In this document: positions 37,650 through 48,908 of the stretch, piece after piece
How the letters are laid out: every line of letters begins with the position of its first letter
Numbering within the stretch: position 1 is the first letter of the stretch
Origin: Clostridia bacterium
GTDB taxonomy: Bacteria; Bacillota; Clostridia; Oscillospirales; RGIG577
Reading direction: 5' to 3'
NCBI GenBank assembly: GCA_017513095.1
Contig: JAFWDJ010000015.1
Coordinates: 1 to 60,607, forward strand
Length of the DNA stretch: 60,607 nt
The notes under the pieces: generated by a model
What the model was told of the DNA's origin: nothing
The model's input: only the letters and a program-made list of their open reading frames with translations
The model's database searches: none
Translations under genes and position numbers: made by a program

Positions 37650-37762
37650 AAAATCTTTAAATCGGTCCCGTGAGGCCGATAAGGTTGTTATACAAACGCT
37701 TCTGTGCGTATCTCTGCGGATGTTTAACCCCCTTGTTCCTTGCGGACGAGGGGTATTTTTTT
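37650..37762 (+). promoter_or_regulatory. PyrR-type attenuator leader of the pyr operon
   Basis: A stem-loop ATCGG-TCCCGTGAGG-CCGAT (37661-37680) presents the UCC-G-GAGG loop known to bind PyrR as anti-antiterminator. About 50 bases later a terminator runs from 37727 to 37762: ACCCCCTTGTTCC pairs with GGACGAGGGGT with a single-base bulge and is followed by seven T. By analogy with Bacillus, PyrR-UMP binding would favour termination. The competing antiterminator was not resolved by eye. Confidence 0.85.
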
Positions 37763-37779: not shown

Positions 37780-38307
37780 ATGGACGCGAAAGTACTTATG
37801 GACGCGCAGGCGATAGACCGCGCCGTAACAAGAATTTCATATCAGATAATAGAGAAGAACCGCGGCGCCGACGGCCTTTGTCTTATAGGAATTTACAGCG
37901 GAGGCGTGGCGCTGGCGCGGATGCTGGCCGAAAAGATATCAAAAAGCGAGAACGCGCAGGTGATGGTGGGCACGATTGACACCGCGATGTACCGCGACGA
38001 TATGCGCGGGCGCGACGTGCCGAAATCGACAAATACCGACATCACCTTCGACATCGACGACAAGACCGTGATTTTAGTTGACGACGTGCTTTCTACGGGG
38101 CGCACCGTGCGCGCGGCCATCGACGCGGTGATGCATATAGGGCGGCCGCGCCTTACGCAGCTTGCCGCGCTTATCGACAGAGGGCACCGCGAGCTTCCGA
38201 TACGCGCCGATTTTGTCGGCAAGAACGTGCCCACGTCGGCGTCGGAGGATATTAGGGTATATCTTTCGAAGGCGGGCGAGGAAAACAGAGTGGAGCTTAA
38301 ATCATGA
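37780..38307 (+). CDS. pyrR: Bifunctional pyr operon regulator / uracil phosphoribosyltransferase PyrR
   Basis: A 175-residue RNA-binding attenuation regulator with residual uracil phosphoribosyltransferase activity. The PRPP-binding loop VILVDDVLSTGRTVRAA is near residue 95, and the basic RDDMRGRDVP loop is typical. ATG at 37780 follows GGGAGG. It lies directly behind its own target leader, so it is autoregulated, and begins the pyrR-pyrC-pyrF-carA-carB operon. Confidence 0.96.
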   Translation: MDAKVLMDAQAIDRAVTRISYQIIEKNRGADGLCLIGIYSGGVALARMLAEKISKSENAQVMVGTIDTAMYRDDMRGRDVPKSTNTDITFDIDDKTVILVDDVLSTGRTVRAAIDAVMHIGRPRLTQLAALIDRGHRELPIRADFVGKNVPTSASEDIRVYLSKAGEENRVELKS

Positions 38308-38326: not shown

Positions 38327-39601
38327 TTGACGATACTCATAAAAAAAGCGCGGGTCATAGACCCCACACAGAAGCTTGACAAGATCTCCGACATACTCAT
38401 AGAGGACGGAAGGATAAAGAAGCTTGCGACAGGGATAAACGAAAGGGCCGATAAGGTGATAGACGCGACCGACTGCATAGCGGCGCCCGGCTTTATCGAT
38501 ATGCACGTTCATCTTAGGGATCCCGGATTTGAGTATAAAGAGGACATAATCTCGGGCACTCAGGCGGCGCTTCGCGGCGGCTTTACCTCGGTCGTATGCA
38601 TGGCCAATACGAAGCCCGTTATAGATACGCCCGAGCTTGTAAGGTATATAAAGGAGAAGGCCGAGGGCACGCACGTAAACGTATATCCCGCGGCTGCGAT
38701 GACGAAGGGGCTTTTAGGCGCGGAGCCGACCGATATAAAGGCCTTGAAGGCCGCGGGCGCTATCGCCGTGTCGGACGACGGCCGCCCCGTTGAGAACGCA
38801 AAGCTCATGCTCGACGTCATTCGCACGGCCGACGCTTATCATATGCTGCCGATATCGCACAGCGAGGACTTAAATCTCGTGGACGGCGGCGTTATAAACG
38901 AGGGCGCGGTGTCATACGAGTTCGGCCTTCGCGGTATGTCCCGCATGGCGGAGTATATGGCGATCATGCGCGACGTTATGCTTTCGCTGCCGAAGAGGAA
39001 CCGCATACATATAGCGCACGTAAGCTGCAAGGAGTCGGTCGACGCGATACGCTGGGGCAAGAGACTTAATCCCAACATAACGAGCGAGACCGCGCCGCAC
39101 TACGTTTCGCTTACGGAGCGCTCCGTAATGGGACTCGGCGTGAACGCGAAGATGAATCCGCCGCTTCGCACCGAGGAGGACGTGGACGCGGTAATAGAGG
39201 GACTGCGCGACGGCACGATAGACGTTATCGCAACGGATCACGCGCCGCATTCCGCGGAGGACAAGGGCACGATAGAGAAGGGCGCGTTCGGCATTGTGGG
39301 CCTTGAGACGGCGCTTGCCGTAAGCTATACGTATCTCGTCGCGGCGGGCAAGATGAGCATAAGAAAGCTCATCCGCCTTATGAGCACGAATCCGGCGGCC
39401 ATATTGGGCGTAGAGGGCGGAAGCCTTATAACGGGCAGCCGCGCCGACGTCGTTATCTTCGATACGGAGGAGTTCAGGGTAAACAAGTCGGATTTCGCCT
39501 CGAAGTCGAAAAATACGCCGTTCGACGGCATGACGCTTCGCGGCCGCGTGCTCTGCACCATATCGAACGGCGAGCTCGTATACAAGAGCGATTTTATATA
39601 A
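38327..39601 (+). CDS. pyrC: Dihydroorotase
   Basis: A 424-residue class I dihydroorotase that cyclises carbamoyl-aspartate. Metal ligands lie in DMHVHLRDPGFEYKEDI (near residue 58), ISHSED, RIHIAHVS and VIATDHAPHS. The ANTKPV motif is conserved. TTG at 38327 follows GAAGGAGGG; the in-frame extension back into pyrR is not credible. Confidence 0.95.
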   Translation: MTILIKKARVIDPTQKLDKISDILIEDGRIKKLATGINERADKVIDATDCIAAPGFIDMHVHLRDPGFEYKEDIISGTQAALRGGFTSVVCMANTKPVIDTPELVRYIKEKAEGTHVNVYPAAAMTKGLLGAEPTDIKALKAAGAIAVSDDGRPVENAKLMLDVIRTADAYHMLPISHSEDLNLVDGGVINEGAVSYEFGLRGMSRMAEYMAIMRDVMLSLPKRNRIHIAHVSCKESVDAIRWGKRLNPNITSETAPHYVSLTERSVMGLGVNAKMNPPLRTEEDVDAVIEGLRDGTIDVIATDHAPHSAEDKGTIEKGAFGIVGLETALAVSYTYLVAAGKMSIRKLIRLMSTNPAAILGVEGGSLITGSRADVVIFDTEEFRVNKSDFASKSKNTPFDGMTLRGRVLCTISNGELVYKSDFI

Positions 39602-39637
39602 GGACCCGAAAAAAGCTATATGAAAATGGGAGGCAAT

Positions 39638-40552
39638 ATGTCTGTTGATATTCTGATAAAAAAGATAAAGGAGAAGAATAATCCCACGGTTGCGGGACTC
39701 GATCCGCTTCTGTCATACGTGCCGGAGCATATAATAAACGAATGCTTCGAGGAGCACGGGAAGAACCTTTCGGGCGCGGCGGCGGCGATATACAAATTCA
39801 ACGCCGCGCTTATCGACGAGCTTTCCGACGTGGTGGCGGCTGTAAAGCTTCAGTCGGCGTACTATGAGCTTTACGGCTGGCGCGGAGTCCGCGTGCTTGA
39901 CGAAACGATACGCTACGCCAAAGAAAAGGGGCTTTACGTCATAGCCGACGTAAAGAGAAACGACATAGGCTCGACCGCGAAGGCATACGCGGGCGCGTAC
40001 CTTTCGGGCGCGGACGTAGGCGGCGAGGTCACGCCCGCCTTCGACGCGGATTCTGTAACGGTAAACGGTTACCTCGGCACCGACGGAATTGCGCCCTTCG
40101 TTGAGGCCTGCCGCGAGCATAAAAAGAGCATCTTCGTGCTCGTAAAGACGTCGAATCCCTCGTCGGGCGAGCTTCAGGACAAAAAGATAGGCGGCGACGC
40201 CGTATACGAGGTCATGGCCGACATGGTAAACGGCTGGGGAGAAGGGCTTATCGGAGAGAGCGGCTATTCCTCTGTCGGCGCGGTTGTCGGCGCGACTTAT
40301 CCCGAGATGCAGAAGATTTTAAGAGCGCGCATGCCGCGGGCGTACTTCCTCGTACCGGGCTACGGCGCGCAGGGCGCGGGTGCGGCCGATATAGTGAACG
40401 CTTTCAATAAGGACGGGCTCGGCGCGGTGATAAATTCGTCGCGCGCGATAATGTGCGCCTACAAAAAGACGGGCGACGCCGCAAACTTCGCGAAGGCGGC
40501 GCGCGCGGAGGCAGAACGAATGAGAGACGAAATAACGGCGGCGATAGGCTGA
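39638..40552 (+). CDS. pyrF: Orotidine-5'-phosphate decarboxylase, type 2
   Basis: A 304-residue decarboxylase giving UMP, of the longer type 2 subfamily. The catalytic Asp-Lys-Asp cluster lies in VIADVKRNDIGSTAKAY, and the C-terminal phosphate-binding PGYGAQG and NSSRAIM segments are present. ATG at 39638 follows GGGAGGCAAT. Confidence 0.95.
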   Translation: MSVDILIKKIKEKNNPTVAGLDPLLSYVPEHIINECFEEHGKNLSGAAAAIYKFNAALIDELSDVVAAVKLQSAYYELYGWRGVRVLDETIRYAKEKGLYVIADVKRNDIGSTAKAYAGAYLSGADVGGEVTPAFDADSVTVNGYLGTDGIAPFVEACREHKKSIFVLVKTSNPSSGELQDKKIGGDAVYEVMADMVNGWGEGLIGESGYSSVGAVVGATYPEMQKILRARMPRAYFLVPGYGAQGAGAADIVNAFNKDGLGAVINSSRAIMCAYKKTGDAANFAKAARAEAERMRDEITAAIG

Positions 40553-40603: not shown

Positions 40604-41677
40604 ATGCAGGCAGTTTTAGTGCTTGAAAGCGGGGAAAAGTTCTTCGGCCGTTCGTTCGGAGCCGAGTCAAACGCGGCGGGCGAGCTTGTGTTCTATTCCG
40701 CTATGGCAGGTTATCAGGAGGTTTTGTGCGACCCCGCGCATCAGAATAAGCTTGTGATAATGACGTACCCCATAATCGGAAGCTACGGCATAAACGAGCT
40801 TGACGGCATGGATTTTCAGGCTACGGCCCTTATCGTAAAGGAATATATGGATGATCCGAGCAACTTCCGTTCGGAGGGCACGCTCTCGGATCTCTTGAAA
40901 GAGAAGGGCATCGTGGGCATATCGGGCATAGATACGCGCGCGCTCGTAAAGAGACTCCGCGGCGGCGACCGCATCCGCGCGGCCGTACTCGCCACGGACG
41001 AAAAGATAGATTACGAGGACGTGGGCTTCGTGCTCGAATGTACGCCGCTCGATTTCGGCGTGCTGGGCGTTACGGGAATGTATCCCGAGACTTATCGGCC
41101 CGATGGCGAGACGAAATACCGCATCGCGCTTTACGATTTCGGCACGAAAAAGAGCGTGATTAACGCCTTCACGAAGGCGGGCGCCGAGGTGACCGTTTTC
41201 CCGCCGAGAAGCGACGTTTCCTATATCGCGGACATGAACTTCGACGCGCTTATAATCGCGGGTGCGGGCGGCGAGCTTGACGAGAACATAAAGAAGTACA
41301 CCGAAAGAGTAAAGACGCTTCTTGATATGGGCCTTCCCACGCTCGGCATAGATATGGGACATCTCATGACAGCGAGCGCGCTCGGCGGAAAGATAATAAA
41401 GATGCAAAAGCCGCACAGAAGCGCGTCCTGCACCGTGCGCGATATGGAAATAGGCCGCGTTTATCCCACGCAGCAGAGCCACATCTTCGCGGTAAGCCCC
41501 GACGCGCTGCCCGAGGGCGCGCGCGTCTCGTTCATCTGTCAGAACGACGGCACCGTGGAGGGACTCTGCTACCCCGATAAGAATATAAAGACCGTGCAGT
41601 TCTATCCCGACGAATATCCGAAGGAATACGGCACCGGTTACGTTTACAGCGAGTTTTTAGACGCGCTCAAAGGTTAG
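40604..41677 (+). CDS. carA: Carbamoyl-phosphate synthase small subunit with a degenerate glutaminase site
   Basis: A 357-residue homologue of CarA, which normally hydrolyses glutamine and feeds ammonia to CarB. The N-terminal domain (about 1-165) is intact, with GYQEVL and VGISGIDTRALVKRLR. In the class I amidotransferase domain the nucleophile elbow reads LGIDMGHLM where the family has GICLGHQ, so the catalytic Cys is Asp250. The C-terminal motif reads VQFYPDE instead of VQFHPE, giving Tyr334 and Asp336 for the catalytic His and Glu. The spacings 84 and 86 equal those of E. coli Cys269-His353-Glu355. The GPGDP loop is also lost (IAGAGGELDEN). It follows AAGGAG and lies 12 bp before carB. 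It probably acts structurally or in ammonia-dependent synthesis. Confidence 0.9.
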   Translation: MQAVLVLESGEKFFGRSFGAESNAAGELVFYSAMAGYQEVLCDPAHQNKLVIMTYPIIGSYGINELDGMDFQATALIVKEYMDDPSNFRSEGTLSDLLKEKGIVGISGIDTRALVKRLRGGDRIRAAVLATDEKIDYEDVGFVLECTPLDFGVLGVTGMYPETYRPDGETKYRIALYDFGTKKSVINAFTKAGAEVTVFPPRSDVSYIADMNFDALIIAGAGGELDENIKKYTERVKTLLDMGLPTLGIDMGHLMTASALGGKIIKMQKPHRSASCTVRDMEIGRVYPTQQSHIFAVSPDALPEGARVSFICQNDGTVEGLCYPDKNIKTVQFYPDEYPKEYGTGYVYSEFLDALKG

Positions 41678-41689
41678 GAGGAAAGAGAA

Positions 41690-44600
41690 ATGCCACTTCG
41701 TAAGGAACTTAAAAAGGTGCTTGTTATCGGCTCCGGCCCGATAATCATAGGCCAGGCGGCGGAATTCGACTATGCCGGCACTCAGGCGTGCAAGGCATTA
41801 AAAGAGGACGGCATCTGCGTTGTCTTGGTAAATTCCAATCCGGCTACGATAATGACGGACAAGCACATGGCGGACAAAATTTACCTTGAGCCGCTCAATA
41901 TAGACGTTTTAAAGCGCATAATCGAAATAGAGCGCCCCGACGCCGTGCTTTCGAACTTAGGAGGCCAGATGGGACTTAACTTAAGCATTGAGCTTGCCGA
42001 AAGCGGATTTTTAGACAAGTTCGGCGTAAAGCTTCTCGGCGCCAAGGTCGACACGATAAGAAAGGCGGAGGACCGCCAGGCGTTCAAGGATACGATGGAG
42101 GAGATAGGCGAGCCGTGCATCGCGTCGAAGGTCGTAACGACCATAGAGGACGCGGTCGACTTCGCGCGCGAGATTGATTATCCCGTTATCGTGCGCCCCG
42201 CGTATACGATGGGCGGCACGGGCGGAGGACGTGCGAACGACGAAGCGCAGCTTCGCGAGATATCCGAGGTGGGCATCCGTTCGAGCCGCGTAGGTCAGAT
42301 ACTCATAGAAAAGTGCGTGGCGGGCTGGAAGGAGATCGAGTACGAGGTAATGCGCGACAGCGCGGGAAACGCCATCTCCATATGCAACATGGAGAACGTG
42401 GACCCCGTAGGTGTGCATACGGGCGACAGCATCGTAGTCGCTCCCACTCAGACGCTTTCCGCAGTGGAATGCGCGCGCCTTCGCGCGTCGGCTCTTAAAA
42501 TAGTCTGCGCGCTCGGCGTTGAGGGTGGCTGCAACGTGCAGTTCGCCGTAAATCCCGACAGCTTCGATTACGCCGTAATCGAGGTAAATCCGCGCGTATC
42601 GCGTTCGAGCGCGCTCGCGTCGAAGGCGACGGGCTATCCCATCGCGCGCGTAGCGTCGAAGATAGCGATAGGCTATAACCTTGACGAAATAAAGAACTCC
42701 GTAACGGGTACGACGTTCGCGTCGAGCGAGCCTTCGATAGACTACATCGTTTTGAAATTCCCCAAGTGGCCGTTCGACAAATTCGTATACGGCGACAGAA
42801 CGCTCGGCACGCAGATGAAGGCGACGGGCGAGGTAATGTGCATATCCGACAGCTTCGAATCGGCGCTTATGAAGGCCGTTCGCTGCATAGAATTAAAGCT
42901 CGACCGCATGTATATGCCGCGCATAGAGGCATTAGAGCTCGACGAGATAATTGCCGGCATCAAAAAGTGCGACGACGAGCGCATCTTCTACATCTGCGCG
43001 GCATTAAGACGCGGCGTGCGCATCGACGAGATATTCGAGATGACGAAGATTGACCGCTGGTTCTTATATAAGCTCAGCGTGCTCATAAATACCGAGCTTA
43101 TGCTCGAGGAGGAGCTTTTAACGCCCGCCGTTTACCGCGAGGCAAAGAAGATGGGCTTTTTAGACAGCACGATAGAGGAGCTGTCGGGCGAAAAGATAAA
43201 GGAGCCCATAAAGCCCGTATATAAGATGGTCGACACGTGCGCGGGCGAGATAGAGGCGAAAACGCCGTACTATTACTCCACCTACGACGAGGACAACGAG
43301 GCGCGCCCCTCCGATAAGAAAAAGGTGCTCGTTTTCGGCTCCGGCCCGATAAGAATAGGCCAGGGCATAGAGTTCGACTACTGCTCCGTTCACTGCGTAT
43401 GGGCGCTTAAAAATCTGGGATACGAAACGATAATCGCGAACAACAATCCCGAGACCGTATCGACCGACTTTGACACCTCCGACAGGCTCTATTTCGAGCC
43501 GCTCACGCGCGAGGACGTTATAAACATAATCGAGACGGAGAAGCCCGACGGCGCCATAGTACAGTTCGGCGGCCAGACGGCGATAAACCTCGTATCGCAC
43601 ATACAGGACACGGGCATAAAGATTCTCGGCACACAGCCCGACATGATAGACGCGGCCGAGGACAGAGAGATATTCGACGGCGTGCTTGAAAGATGCGGCA
43701 TACCGAGACCGAAGAGCGCAAGCGTATATAAGCTCGACGAGGCGCTTGCGGCCGCAAACGAGATAGGCTATCCCGTGCTCGTTCGTCCCTCGTACGTTTT
43801 GGGCGGCAAGGGCATGGTTATAGCCTATAACGACGACGACGTAAAGGAGTTCATGGGCATAATAAACCGCGAGGTACAGGAGCATCCGATACTCATCGAC
43901 AAGTACATGATGGGCAAGGAGGTCGAGGTCGACGCGATAAGCGACGGCGAGGACATCCTCATCCCCGGCATAATGGAGCATCTCGAACGCGCGGGCGTTC
44001 ACTCGGGCGACTCCATATCGGTATATCCGGCGTACAGCCTCTCCGACGAGACGAAGAAGACGATAGTTGAATATACCGCGAAGCTTGCGAAGGAGCTCAA
44101 GGTAGTCGGCCTTATAAACATCCAGTACGTCGTATACGACGGCGAGGTATACGTAATCGAGGTAAACCCGCGCTCGTCGCGCACGGTGCCCTACATCTCG
44201 AAGGTAACTAACGTTCCGATGATAGAGCTTGCAACGCGCTGCATCCTGGGCGAGCCGCTTAAGAGCCTCGGATTCGGCACGGGCATATACAAGGAGAGCG
44301 ACTACGTTGCCGTAAAGGTGCCGGTCTTCTCGTTTGAAAAGCTCCACGACGTTGATACGCAGCTCGGCCCCGAGATGAAGTCGACGGGCGAGGTTCTGGG
44401 CCTTGCGCGCACCTTCGACGAGGCGCTTTTAAAGGGCCTTACCGCAAGCGGATATAAGCTTAACAGAAGCGGCGGCGTTCTCTTCTCGATAAGGGATCAG
44501 GACAAGCCCGAGCTTCCCGAGCTTGCGCGCAAATTCGTTGATATGGGCTTCTCCATTTACGGCACGGGCGGTACGGCAAGATACCTTCGTCAGAACGGCA

Positions 44601-44866
44601 TCGACGCTACGAGCGTAAAGAAGATAAGCGAGGACAAAAACGACAACGTCTTAAACTTCATCGAGAGCGGCAAGGTAAATTACGTTATCAGCACCTCCAC
44701 CCACGGCAGACAGCCGCAGAGAGAGGGCGTGCGCATCCGCCGCAAGTCGGTTGAGCGCGGCGTTGTTTGCCTCACGTCGTTCGACACGGCCAACGCCGTA
44801 GTCGAGTGCTTAAAGCTCGACAAGAAGGCGCACGAGCTTGAAATGGTGAATATAGCGGATATATAA
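41690..44866 (+). CDS. carB: Carbamoyl-phosphate synthase large subunit
   Basis: A 1058-residue enzyme with two ATP-grasp halves. The first half begins [20 protein letters not shown] and the second, near residue 550, [20 protein letters not shown]. Conserved [11 protein letters not shown] and [10 protein letters not shown] loops bind ATP, and a methylglyoxal-synthase-like regulatory domain ends the chain ([14 protein letters not shown]). All synthetase motifs look intact, in contrast to its small subunit. A terminator follows. Confidence 0.97.
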   Translation: [1058 protein letters not shown]

Positions 44867-44881
44867 GGTGAGACATGAAGG

Positions 44882-44917
44882 CTCCCCGAACGGGTTTTCC
44901 CGTTCGGGGAGTTTTTT
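44882..44917 (+). terminator. Terminator of the pyrR-carB operon
   Basis: CTCCCCGAACGGG (44882-44894), loop TTTT, CCCGTTCGGGGAG (44899-44911), followed by six T. It ends the operon before the repeat-protein gene. Confidence 0.95.
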
Positions 44918-45113
44918 GTTTGCAGTAAGCTTTTGGTGGGGGGAGTTATATTTTTTCCTCGTCCTGTATTGCACAAATTATGGCAGCGTGATAAACTTTA
45001 TCTTATAATACCGCGTGAAAATGACACAAATTCTCAAGTGGTACGTAAAGTATAGTTTTTTCTCCGATTTTCGGTCGAAATACAGGGAAAAGAGCACGGA
45101 AAGGACGGTTTTT

Positions 45114-48100
45114 ATGAAAAAGAAGGTTTTAAGCCTCATTGTGGCCATTGTAATGGTGCTTACGATGCTCCCCGTGATGGGTCTGGCGACGGATACGCCG
45201 CCGGCGGTCACCATCACGTCGATTAGCTATGCCGACGGCGCTGTGAGCCTTGCATGGCAGGCGCAGGACGGCGTTGACGGCTACCGAGTGTACCGCAAAA
45301 CGGGCTCGGGCAAATGGACGACTGTTTTATCCTCCACGACGGGCACATCGTACACCGATACCACAGTGACAGAGGGCAAGACTTACAGCTATACCCTGCG
45401 CTCTAACGTGGGCAGCGCATGGAGCACGGGATACAATGACACGGCGAAGACTATAACGGTGAAAGCAACGGTCGAGCCGCAGCCCGTGACGATAACGTCG
45501 ATAAGCTACGCGGACGGCGCGGTCAGCCTCGCATGGCAGGGGCAGGACAGCGTGGACGGCTACCGCATATACAGAAAGACAGGCTCGGGCAAATGGATTA
45601 CGATTGTTGCATCGACGACGGACACGAGCTACACTGATACGACCGTGACTGAGGGCAAGACTTACAGCTATACCCTTCGCTCTAACGTGGGCAGCGCATG
45701 GAGCACGGGATACAATGACACGGCGAAGACTATAACGGCGAAAGCCGCGGTCGAGCCGCAGCCCGTGACGATTACTACGATTGACTACGCAGACGGTGCT
45801 GTCAGCCTTGCGTGGCAGGGGCAGGACGGCGTGGAAGGCTACCGCATATACAGAAAGACAGGCTCGGGCAAATGGATTACGATTGTTGCATCGACGACGG
45901 ACACGAGTTTCACTGATACGACCGTGACCGAGGGTAAGACTTACAGCTATACCCTGCGCTCTAACGTGGGAAGCGCATGGAGCACGGGCTACAACGACAC
46001 GGCGAAGACTATAACGGCGAAAGCCGCGGTCGAGCCGCAGCCCGTGACGATAACCTCAATAAGCTACGTAGACGGCGCGGTCAGCCTCGCATGGCAGGGG
46101 CAGGACGGCGTGGACGGCTACCGCATATACAGAAAGACAGGCTCGGGCAAATGGACCACGATTGTTGCATCGACGACGGACACGAGTTTCACTGATACGA
46201 CCGTGACCGAGGGTAAGACTTACAGCTATACCCTGCGCTCTAACGTGGGCAGCACATGGAGTACGGGCTATAACGACACGGCGAAGACTATAAAGGTACC
46301 TTCCGCAGTTCCCGACGACGTGAATATAAGCATGATAACGCAGAGCACCGAGGGTGGAATCATAGTGTCGTGGGATGCGGTTCCCAGCGCAGACGGATAC
46401 CGTGTATACAGAAAAACGGCCAATGCGAGTTGGAAGACGGTTCTTTCTAACACGACCGATACAACCTTTACCGATACAAACGCAAACGTGGGAGTGACGT
46501 ACTACTACACGATACGCTCGGTAAAAAACGGAGTGTGGAGTACAGGCTACAACGATACGGTGAAAAGCTTTGCTGCTGGTACCGCGGGCCTTGGCTTTAA
46601 TCAATATACGGGCATGATATCGTGCGCTGATGAGGATATAAGGGAAATATATATTCCCGCCGTGATAAACGGAGTAAAGGTAAAGGGCATAGAGGCCAAC
46701 GGCTTTTCGGGCTGCAAGAATCTTACGACCGTGACGGTGCTTAGTGGTACACAAGATTTATCTATAGGCGCTTACGCCTTTGAGAATTGCACGGCGCTTT
46801 CAAAGGTCGATTTTCGGGACGTAATAACGTCCATAGGCGAATATGCATTTAAAAACTGCACCGCTCTTAATTCTGTAGATTTGCCTACGAGCCTTAAAAA
46901 TATAAGTAAAAAAGCCTTTTCAGGCTGCGTTATAGAAAAGCTTGTTGTGACCGGAAACGGATCGTTTGGAATAAAACTAAATAGTATAGGATTGTCTTCC
47001 ATAAAAGAGCTGGAAATAAAAAAAGGCGTGACGGGCATAGGATATGGTGCATTCAGAGGATGCGACAGCCTCACATCTGTTACGATACCTGAAAGCGTTA
47101 TGAGCATTGGCAAAAATGCGTTCATGGGCTGCAGCGGTCTTAAATCAGTGACGATACCGCCCAGCGTGACAAAAATCAGCGACTATGCATTCTCCGGCTG
47201 CAGCGGACTTACGTCTGTGACTATACCCGCGGAAGTGACGACGATAGATACCGGCGTTTTTCAAGACTGCAGCGGACTTGCGTCTGTTATTGTTCCCGAA
47301 GGTATTACGAGCTTAGGCGAACGTGCGTTCTATGGCTGCACCGGACTAACGTTAGTGACAATACCGTCGAGCGTAACGAGTATAGGCGCATATGCGTTTG
47401 GAAATTGCACAAGCCTTCCAATTGTGACGATCCCCGAAGGTGTGACGAGCATAGGAACCGGTGCGTTCTCGAACTGCAGCAGTCTTACATCGGTGACGAT
47501 ACCGTCGAGCGTGACAAGTATTGGCAAATATATCTTCAGCGGTTGCAGCGCGCTTAATTCTGTAATAATACCCGAAGGTGTGATAAGCATTGGCAACCAT
47601 GCCTTTGATGGCTGCGGCGGCCTAACAGAGGTGACGATTCCGTCAAGCGTTGCAAAAATAGGCGACTATGCTTTCAACGGCTGCAGCAGACTTGTGCGAG
47701 TCAACATAAGCGATCTTGCCGCGTGGTGCTGTATAACGATTGGTGATATATCGTATTATCCTGATTTGGATCGTATGGATGTTGATTATGCTTCTAATCC
47801 TTTATCTTATGCCCATCACTTATATATCGATGGGAAAGAAGTGACAAACCTAATAATCCCTGAGGGCGTGTACAGCATAAACTACAATACATTTAGTGGC
47901 TGCAGCGGGCTGACATCTTTAACTCTTTCATCGAGCGTGACGAGCATAGGCGATAAGGCGTTTTACGATTGCAGTGGTATTACTTCTCTGACAATACCCG
48001 CAAGCGTAACGAGCATAGGGAAAAATGCGTTTGTCGGCATCAAAAACATTGAAACGATTTCCATCCCCAAGGACGTGAACAGTGATATAGTTTCGCTTGT

Positions 48101-48908
48101 CAACGGATGCACGAAGCTTACGGATATATACTACGGTGGCAGTAAGGCACAATGGGCAAACATACGAAGTAAATTCAAAGATAGTGTGATTGATAACGCA
48201 AGACTTCATTACGCCGAAGCATATCCCGTAACGGGTGGAAATATTTATTTCGATAAAGCGGCTGGCGCAATCACATATTATGAAGGGAATATAACATCCC
48301 TCGTTATACCAGAAAAGATAGACGGCGTGGCAGTTTGTTCCATTGATCGCTTGGTATTCAAAGGCTGCGGCAGTCTTATGTCCGTGACGATACCCGCAAG
48401 CGTGACGAGCATAGGGACGGATGCATTCTATGGCTGTAGCAAACTTGAGACAATAAACGTAAACGGCAAAAACCCGGTTTTTGCTTCGTATGACGGCGTT
48501 TTATTTACAAAAAACAAAAAAGAGATGCTACTGTGTCCTAATGCCAGAAGCGGCTCATATACGGTACCCAAGGGTGTGACGAACATAGGAGAGGCATTTA
48601 GGAATTGCAAGAGTCTTACTTCGGTGATTATCCCCGAGGGAGTAAATAGTATAGCCATTTATGCGTTTCGCGGTTGCTGGGCTCTTACATCAGTGACGAT
48701 ACCTAAGAGCGTGATGAACATTGGCGCCAATGCATTCTTGGACTGTAAAAAAATAACCAACGTGTACTATGGTGGAGACGAATCGGGATGGGATCGAATA
48801 AAAGAAAATCTGGAAGAATGGGTGGACACTGAAACGGGAGAACGCGGACAGTATGATTACGGAGAGCATTTGCCAAACGCAACAATCCACTATAACAGCG
48901 CAAACTAA
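45114..48908 (+). CDS. Secreted FN3 / BspA-like leucine-rich-repeat protein 1
   Basis: A 1264-residue exported protein. The signal peptide MKKKVLSLIVAIVMVL ends near residue 27. Five fibronectin type III-like repeats follow at about 33-488, the first four nearly identical, with VDGYRVYRKTGSGKW in each. From about residue 500 to the end run BspA-type (LRR_5) repeats of the form LTSVTIPSSVTSIG. No LPXTG, SLH or C-terminal helix is present, so it is probably released or weakly attached. Such proteins often bind host or microbial surfaces. The ATG at 45114 follows GGAAAGGACGG; an upstream in-frame start lacks a site. It interrupts the pyr cluster. Confidence 0.9.
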   Translation: MKKKVLSLIVAIVMVLTMLPVMGLATDTPPAVTITSISYADGAVSLAWQAQDGVDGYRVYRKTGSGKWTTVLSSTTGTSYTDTTVTEGKTYSYTLRSNVGSAWSTGYNDTAKTITVKATVEPQPVTITSISYADGAVSLAWQGQDSVDGYRIYRKTGSGKWITIVASTTDTSYTDTTVTEGKTYSYTLRSNVGSAWSTGYNDTAKTITAKAAVEPQPVTITTIDYADGAVSLAWQGQDGVEGYRIYRKTGSGKWITIVASTTDTSFTDTTVTEGKTYSYTLRSNVGSAWSTGYNDTAKTITAKAAVEPQPVTITSISYVDGAVSLAWQGQDGVDGYRIYRKTGSGKWTTIVASTTDTSFTDTTVTEGKTYSYTLRSNVGSTWSTGYNDTAKTIKVPSAVPDDVNISMITQSTEGGIIVSWDAVPSADGYRVYRKTANASWKTVLSNTTDTTFTDTNANVGVTYYYTIRSVKNGVWSTGYNDTVKSFAAGTAGLGFNQYTGMISCADEDIREIYIPAVINGVKVKGIEANGFSGCKNLTTVTVLSGTQDLSIGAYAFENCTALSKVDFRDVITSIGEYAFKNCTALNSVDLPTSLKNISKKAFSGCVIEKLVVTGNGSFGIKLNSIGLSSIKELEIKKGVTGIGYGAFRGCDSLTSVTIPESVMSIGKNAFMGCSGLKSVTIPPSVTKISDYAFSGCSGLTSVTIPAEVTTIDTGVFQDCSGLASVIVPEGITSLGERAFYGCTGLTLVTIPSSVTSIGAYAFGNCTSLPIVTIPEGVTSIGTGAFSNCSSLTSVTIPSSVTSIGKYIFSGCSALNSVIIPEGVISIGNHAFDGCGGLTEVTIPSSVAKIGDYAFNGCSRLVRVNISDLAAWCCITIGDISYYPDLDRMDVDYASNPLSYAHHLYIDGKEVTNLIIPEGVYSINYNTFSGCSGLTSLTLSSSVTSIGDKAFYDCSGITSLTIPASVTSIGKNAFVGIKNIETISIPKDVNSDIVSLVNGCTKLTDIYYGGSKAQWANIRSKFKDSVIDNARLHYAEAYPVTGGNIYFDKAAGAITYYEGNITSLVIPEKIDGVAVCSIDRLVFKGCGSLMSVTIPASVTSIGTDAFYGCSKLETINVNGKNPVFASYDGVLFTKNKKEMLLCPNARSGSYTVPKGVTNIGEAFRNCKSLTSVIIPEGVNSIAIYAFRGCWALTSVTIPKSVMNIGANAFLDCKKITNVYYGGDESGWDRIKENLEEWVDTETGERGQYDYGEHLPNATIHYNSAN
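45202..46294 (+). repeat. Four tandem near-identical FN3-coding repeats, 279-bp period
   Basis: The string AGCCCGTGAC recurs at 45481, 45760 and 46039, exactly 279 bp (93 codons) apart, and long blocks between are almost identical at DNA level. Such identity suggests recent duplication or gene conversion and would allow repeat number to change by slippage or recombination. Confidence 0.85.

Follow-up and report, generated by a model that had tools for sequence, protein, structure and literature searches.

What does the small subunit of a carbamoyl phosphate synthase (CPS) contribute once its catalytic triad for glutamine hydrolysis is gone? The question is raised by a gene, here called carA*, in a pyrimidine operon of the window, by which we mean the whole 60,607-nucleotide stretch of DNA that was analysed (contig JAFWDJ010000015.1 of a Clostridia bacterium, assembly GCA_017513095.1). 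The operon runs from a PyrR-binding leader with a terminator through pyrR-pyrC-pyrF-carA*-carB to a terminator-like hairpin, with the following features:

37650..37762, + strand: PyrR-binding leader RF00515 (Rfam, 57 bits vs a gathering threshold of 54) with an intrinsic terminator (stem 37729-37753; terminator scan)
37780..38307, + strand: pyrR (NF003549, 219.8 bits; longest ORF from 37720, ATG at 37780 inferred from homologues)
38327..39601, + strand: pyrC, dihydroorotase (TIGR00857, 380.9 bits; longest ORF from 38162, start at ~38327 inferred from homologues)
39620..40552, + strand: pyrF, orotidine-5'-phosphate decarboxylase (TIGR02127, 256.8 bits)
40604..41677, + strand: carA*, triad-dead CPS small subunit (ORF, domain profiles, E. 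coli alignment, model, dN/dS)
40736..40738, + strand: A45, at the glutamine contact Ser47 (alignment, column counts)
41258..41278, + strand: degraded oxyanion loop A219-G-A-G-G-E-L225, NGPGDP in E. coli (alignment, column counts)
41351..41353, + strand: D250, at the position of the nucleophile Cys269 (E. coli alignment; elbow of strand 246-250 and helix 251-259 in the model)
41603..41605, + strand: Y334, at the His353 position (E. coli alignment)
41609..41611, + strand: D336, at the Glu355 position (E. coli alignment)
41690..44866, + strand: carB, CPS large subunit, normal (TIGR01369, 1457 bits; E. coli CarB, 1007 bits)
44896..44911, + strand: terminator-like hairpin 3' of carB (terminator scan)

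The leader and its terminator probably form a pyrimidine-controlled attenuator, and the CPS encoded downstream is therefore probably under pyrimidine control. The window CarB aligns end to end with its E. coli counterpart, being of full length with both ATP-grasp halves and their catalytic motifs preserved. Downstream of carB (45015-48908) lies a gene for a large surface-type protein in which repeated Fn3-like units precede leucine-rich repeats of the BspA type.

The carA* frame is intact over 357 codons and lies immediately 5' of carB. Its product matches both CPSase_sm_chain and GATase (Pfam) and scores above the cut-off of NF009475 ('carbamoyl phosphate synthase small subunit'), and it falls under that of TIGR01368 ('glutamine-hydrolyzing'; 269.5 vs 307.35 bits). 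Based on an alignment to E. coli CarA (PDB 1c30/1t36), the positions of Cys269, His353 and Glu355 are occupied by D250, Y334 and D336 at the matching spacings of 84 and 86 residues, and the GPGDP loop has become A-G-G-E-L. The glutamine pocket is altered as well: Ser47, Gln273, Asn311 and Gly313, the residues of E. coli CarA that contact glutamine, correspond to A45, L254, S292 and I294, and M251 stands at Leu270. Of the attributes of a CPS II small subunit, CarA* thus has the domains and the adjacent carB, and lacks the Cys-His-Glu triad and all four glutamine contacts. An AlphaFold2 model (mean pLDDT 89.6) preserves the full CarA fold, with TM-scores of 0.86-0.90 to E. coli CarA and 0.83-0.85 to human CPS1, and places D250 at the strand-helix nucleophile elbow. 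The GATase domain is diverging faster, as it retains 46% of the conserved columns vs 72% in the N-terminal domain. We also considered whether the tunnel is blocked, as it is in human CPS1 by a Gln at the position of E. coli Gly293; the window protein has Ala there, which is common in intact CarAs too, so that this position is uninformative. Taken together, the altered triad and pocket point to a glutaminase pseudoenzyme that would be unable to hydrolyse glutamine.

Each of the three species available for the genus has the same D-Y-D combination. Within the genus, carA* is under purifying selection, with a dN/dS of 0.11-0.17 (0.08-0.12 in the N-terminal domain, 0.12-0.20 in the GATase domain), compared with 0.08-0.11 for the intact carA described below and 0.04-0.06 for carB. 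Ten further sets of closely related dead CarAs gave values of 0.04-0.31, with dS saturated in the lowest and some others. Since the replacements are shared by three species and the gene is under purifying selection, carA* is neither a sequencing error nor a pseudogene. The first-pass annotation of this DNA had described the loss of the triad at this spacing, the degraded loop, an intact frame and N-terminal domain next to a normal CarB, and had argued against sequencing error; all of this holds, the loss is fixed in the genus, and its conclusion that the enzyme should be unable to use glutamine is supported.

Does the organism depend on this enzyme? The genome (1.99 Mb, 97.7% complete) also encodes an intact CarA (GICLGHQ, HPE), hereafter CarA2, and a second CarB elsewhere (G000:C44), in a cluster with glutamate-synthase-like genes, glnA, an ANTAR response regulator, purF, carA, a carB-diaminopimelate-epimerase fusion, nadE and an aminotransferase gene. 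This cluster is arranged identically in a congener (G001), and the second, intact carA-carB is present in 3/3 species of the genus; the two CarA proteins are ~34% identical. Consequently, carA*B is not the sole CPS, and glutamine-dependent synthesis of carbamoyl phosphate is still possible for the organism. The first-pass annotation had set a second intact carA against its own reading: the gene exists, and with it a whole-cell dependence on ammonia is refuted, while the claim made for the window enzyme itself is untouched. CarB fusions of this kind recur, as L046:7998-12047 and many other loci carry a carB of ~1340-1350 codons with a C-terminal diaminopimelate epimerase domain, often beside nadE and an LL-DAP-aminotransferase-like gene.

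To see how far dead CarAs extend, we ran TIGR01368 against 396 genomes of the order, repeated the search for those with weak or multiple copies, and typed the triad from ~110 loci. Only dead or truncated CarA was found in 47/396 genomes, and another 23 hold a dead or truncated copy plus an intact one. The 127 CarA rows typed (one locus doubly counted) comprise 48 C-H-E, 66 dead, 7 divergent orphans without adjacent carB, 5 truncated and 1 C-H-D, a tally that gives no prevalence because the choice of rows was biased to low scorers. All 66 dead CarAs belong to carA-carB pairs (for two of them carB lies beyond, or is unseen at, a contig edge); they fall into at least 15 families, with 32 in pyr settings, 15 in arg settings and the rest elsewhere. 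The Cys is lost in 65/66 (to Gly in 48, Asp in 8 and Ser in 6), the His in 60/66 and the Glu in 39/66, in a nested order with Cys first: Cys alone in 5, Cys and His in 21, all three in 38. The neighbours that form the elbow and oxyanion site are retained (G271 in 65/66, H272 in 59/66, G241 and H312 in 63/66 each). On a CarB tree (128 rows), no fewer than 23 changes are required to explain the dead state; well-supported branches force at least 9 of these, and the window genus represents a separate event; the tree cannot separate gain from loss, and we took the direction to be loss because regain of the triad is far less likely. Judged from these sequences, predicted glutaminase loss has arisen independently many times in gut Clostridia and their relatives.

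Two groups of this dataset stand apart. In family f2 (L043, L044, L111, L112, L113, L115, L116), a very divergent CarA-like protein, mostly with Gly-Leu-Cys at the triad, is encoded after pyrF in the pyr operon with no neighbouring carB and is retained in several species. The CarB-like proteins of L095, L098, L101, L163 and L165 sit on very long branches, some being ~990-1000 aa long, and may differ functionally.

Dead CarAs are also found beyond the order. Among 393 genomes of the class they occur in other orders, with G-Q-E in G427 and G-D-F in the only CarA of a single-contig, closed genome (G479), and they recur in other classes of the phylum, where closed, single-contig G1005 has only a dead G-Q-D CarA. 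A general loss of glutaminases in such genomes is ruled out: other class I amidotransferases (GuaA, PyrG, HisH) keep their Cys in 14/15 checked, and the loss is thus aimed at CarA. A PyrG with Ser as nucleophile (GLSLGMN) was found in G348 (L257), whose only CarA is likewise dead.

In some relatives the small subunit is reduced further. At L117:4492-4914 and L118:4459-4896, upstream of carB, CarA consists of the N-terminal domain only (140-145 aa; CPSase_sm_chain is the sole Pfam match at L117), and at L045, L119 and L120 this domain is fused to CarB (1502-1511 aa). CarB is kept in 14/20 sampled CarA-less genomes of the order and in 8/20 from the 393 genomes of the class. The 14 of the order mostly have clean pyrC-carB-pyrK-pyrD operons, with pyrC adjoining carB. 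That the N-terminal domain is retained alone suggests a role separate from glutamine hydrolysis.

We consider it likely that CarA*B uses free ammonia to supply pyrimidine synthesis with carbamoyl phosphate, with CarA* as a folded, CarB-paired subunit devoid of glutaminase activity. We infer that CarA* would not hydrolyse glutamine: it would keep its fold, pair with CarB and retain a structural or gating role, chiefly through its N-terminal domain, while the complex would convert free ammonia, bicarbonate and two ATP to carbamoyl phosphate. For the window enzyme, ammonia use is the simplest reading of its residues, and the repeated loss of the glutaminase site in gut Clostridia and relatives makes it very probable that such enzymes take free ammonia. 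Both Cys269 and His353 of E. coli CarA are essential for glutamine use (PMC6245113), and E. coli CarB alone makes carbamoyl phosphate from NH3 (as cited in PMC6245113). E. coli CPS requires very high, probably unphysiological, ammonia (PMC6245113), so the CarBs paired with dead CarAs would depend on either an improved ammonia site or abundant ammonia. For this organism, a gut niche rich in ammonia is plausible, as the nearest named record is a MAG from dairy-cattle duodenum. The two copies may divide labour by nitrogen supply, the pyrimidine-controlled CPS using ammonia and the intact CPS, beside glutamine synthetase, pieces of glutamate synthase, the ANTAR regulator and purF, using glutamine when ammonia is scarce. 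In the dual genomes of the order the intact copy does have the C-H-E triad and adjoins purF or glnA in most (e.g. L214-L216, L218-L223, L227, L232, L233), which suggests a similar split between ammonia-fed and glutamine-fed copies. The relatives would then form an erosion series from dead CarA to N-domain-only CarA, N-domain-CarB fusion and finally CarB alone. With somewhat less assurance, we favour the wider proposal that ammonia-specific CPSs are common in gut Clostridia, and occur in other classes as well, having evolved repeatedly as CarA became non-catalytic (Cys usually to Gly), was cut down to its N-terminal domain and was dropped, with coexisting copies split between ammonia (pyr or arg) and glutamine (glnA or purF).

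The intact copy also offers the most serious alternative, namely that CarA* is merely structural or regulatory and that CarA2, which might conceivably associate with the pyr CarB, feeds it glutamine-derived ammonia, so that the cell stays glutamine-dependent. The second carA-carB of each species of the genus and the 23 dual genomes of the order fit this; yet 47 genomes are without an intact CarA, 14 sampled ones have CarB but no CarA, and CarA* retains its N-terminal domain, immediately precedes its own carB and resembles CarA2 at just ~34% identity. We regard this reading as unlikely. A glutaminase acting in trans on the dead complex is more doubtful still, and we give it very little weight: PyrG, GuaA and HisH are available in each genome, but these have partners of their own, the dead-CarA and CarA-less operons showed no candidate gene, and the pocket of the window CarA is changed beyond the nucleophile. 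Nor need another amidotransferase be invoked, which the first-pass annotation had offered as its alternative: many other genomes have only a dead CarA, or CarB and no CarA.

It could also be argued that carA* is a mere relic, either neutral or decaying as a pseudogene, and that the operon works with CarB alone. Pyr operons without CarA do exist and the GATase domain has drifted faster than the N-terminal one, but the frame is open in three species at the low dN/dS given above, purifying selection extends to other dead clades, and the predicted fold is of high confidence; a relic is thus improbable. Because the genome that holds the window, like most of its relatives, is a draft assembly, we also weighed an artefact of assembly, sequencing or binning, whose probability is negligible given the same three replacements in an unbroken frame in each of three species, and the dead CarAs of the closed genomes G479 and G1005.

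If the repeated loss is real, it amounts to a replicated evolutionary experiment in turning an amidotransferase into an enzyme that runs on ammonia, in parallel with the emergence of CPS1. For gut bacteria, metabolic models would change, as annotation still labels dead CarAs as CPS small subunits; free ammonia would be pointed to as the nitrogen source for pyrimidines and arginine in such bacteria, and inhibitors directed at the glutaminase site would spare such enzymes. We found no prior report of a bacterial CPS without glutaminase in the open-access literature searched.

Among known systems, E. coli CarAB (TIGR01368/TIGR01369) shares with the window enzyme its domain architecture, operon position, CarB catalytic motifs and CarA fold, and differs in the triad, the glutamine contacts and the profile score. 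Its Cys269 mutants, like CarB alone, are reported to be ammonia-only (Rubino et al., 1986, 1987, as cited in PMC6245113), but they were engineered, whereas the dead CarAs are natural, fixed and conserved. The Pyrococcus carbamate-kinase-like CPS supports ammonia-dependent synthesis (PMC6022934, PMC6245113) with an unrelated amino-acid-kinase fold, in contrast to the ordinary ATP-grasp CarB employed here. All bacterial CPSases have been held to use glutamine as their physiological donor (review PMC6245113), a rule that the dead-CarA set contradicts at the level of sequence, and CPS1 has been held to be the sole CPS not using glutamine (PMC4655335). In human CPS1 (5DOT/5DOU) the catalytic Cys is lost (Ser294) and ammonia is the nitrogen donor (PMC4655335); human and frog CPS1 thus resemble CarA* in keeping the CarA fold with the Cys replaced (Asp250 in the window). 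CPS1 is, however, a vertebrate, N-acetylglutamate-requiring enzyme of the urea cycle fused into a single chain, whereas carA* and carB are separate genes (only the N-terminal domain is fused, at L045, L119 and L120) and the bacterial forms lie in pyr and arg operons, mostly carry Gly for Cys and have many independent origins. The best reading is that these putative ammonia-using bacterial synthases are convergent with vertebrate CPS1.
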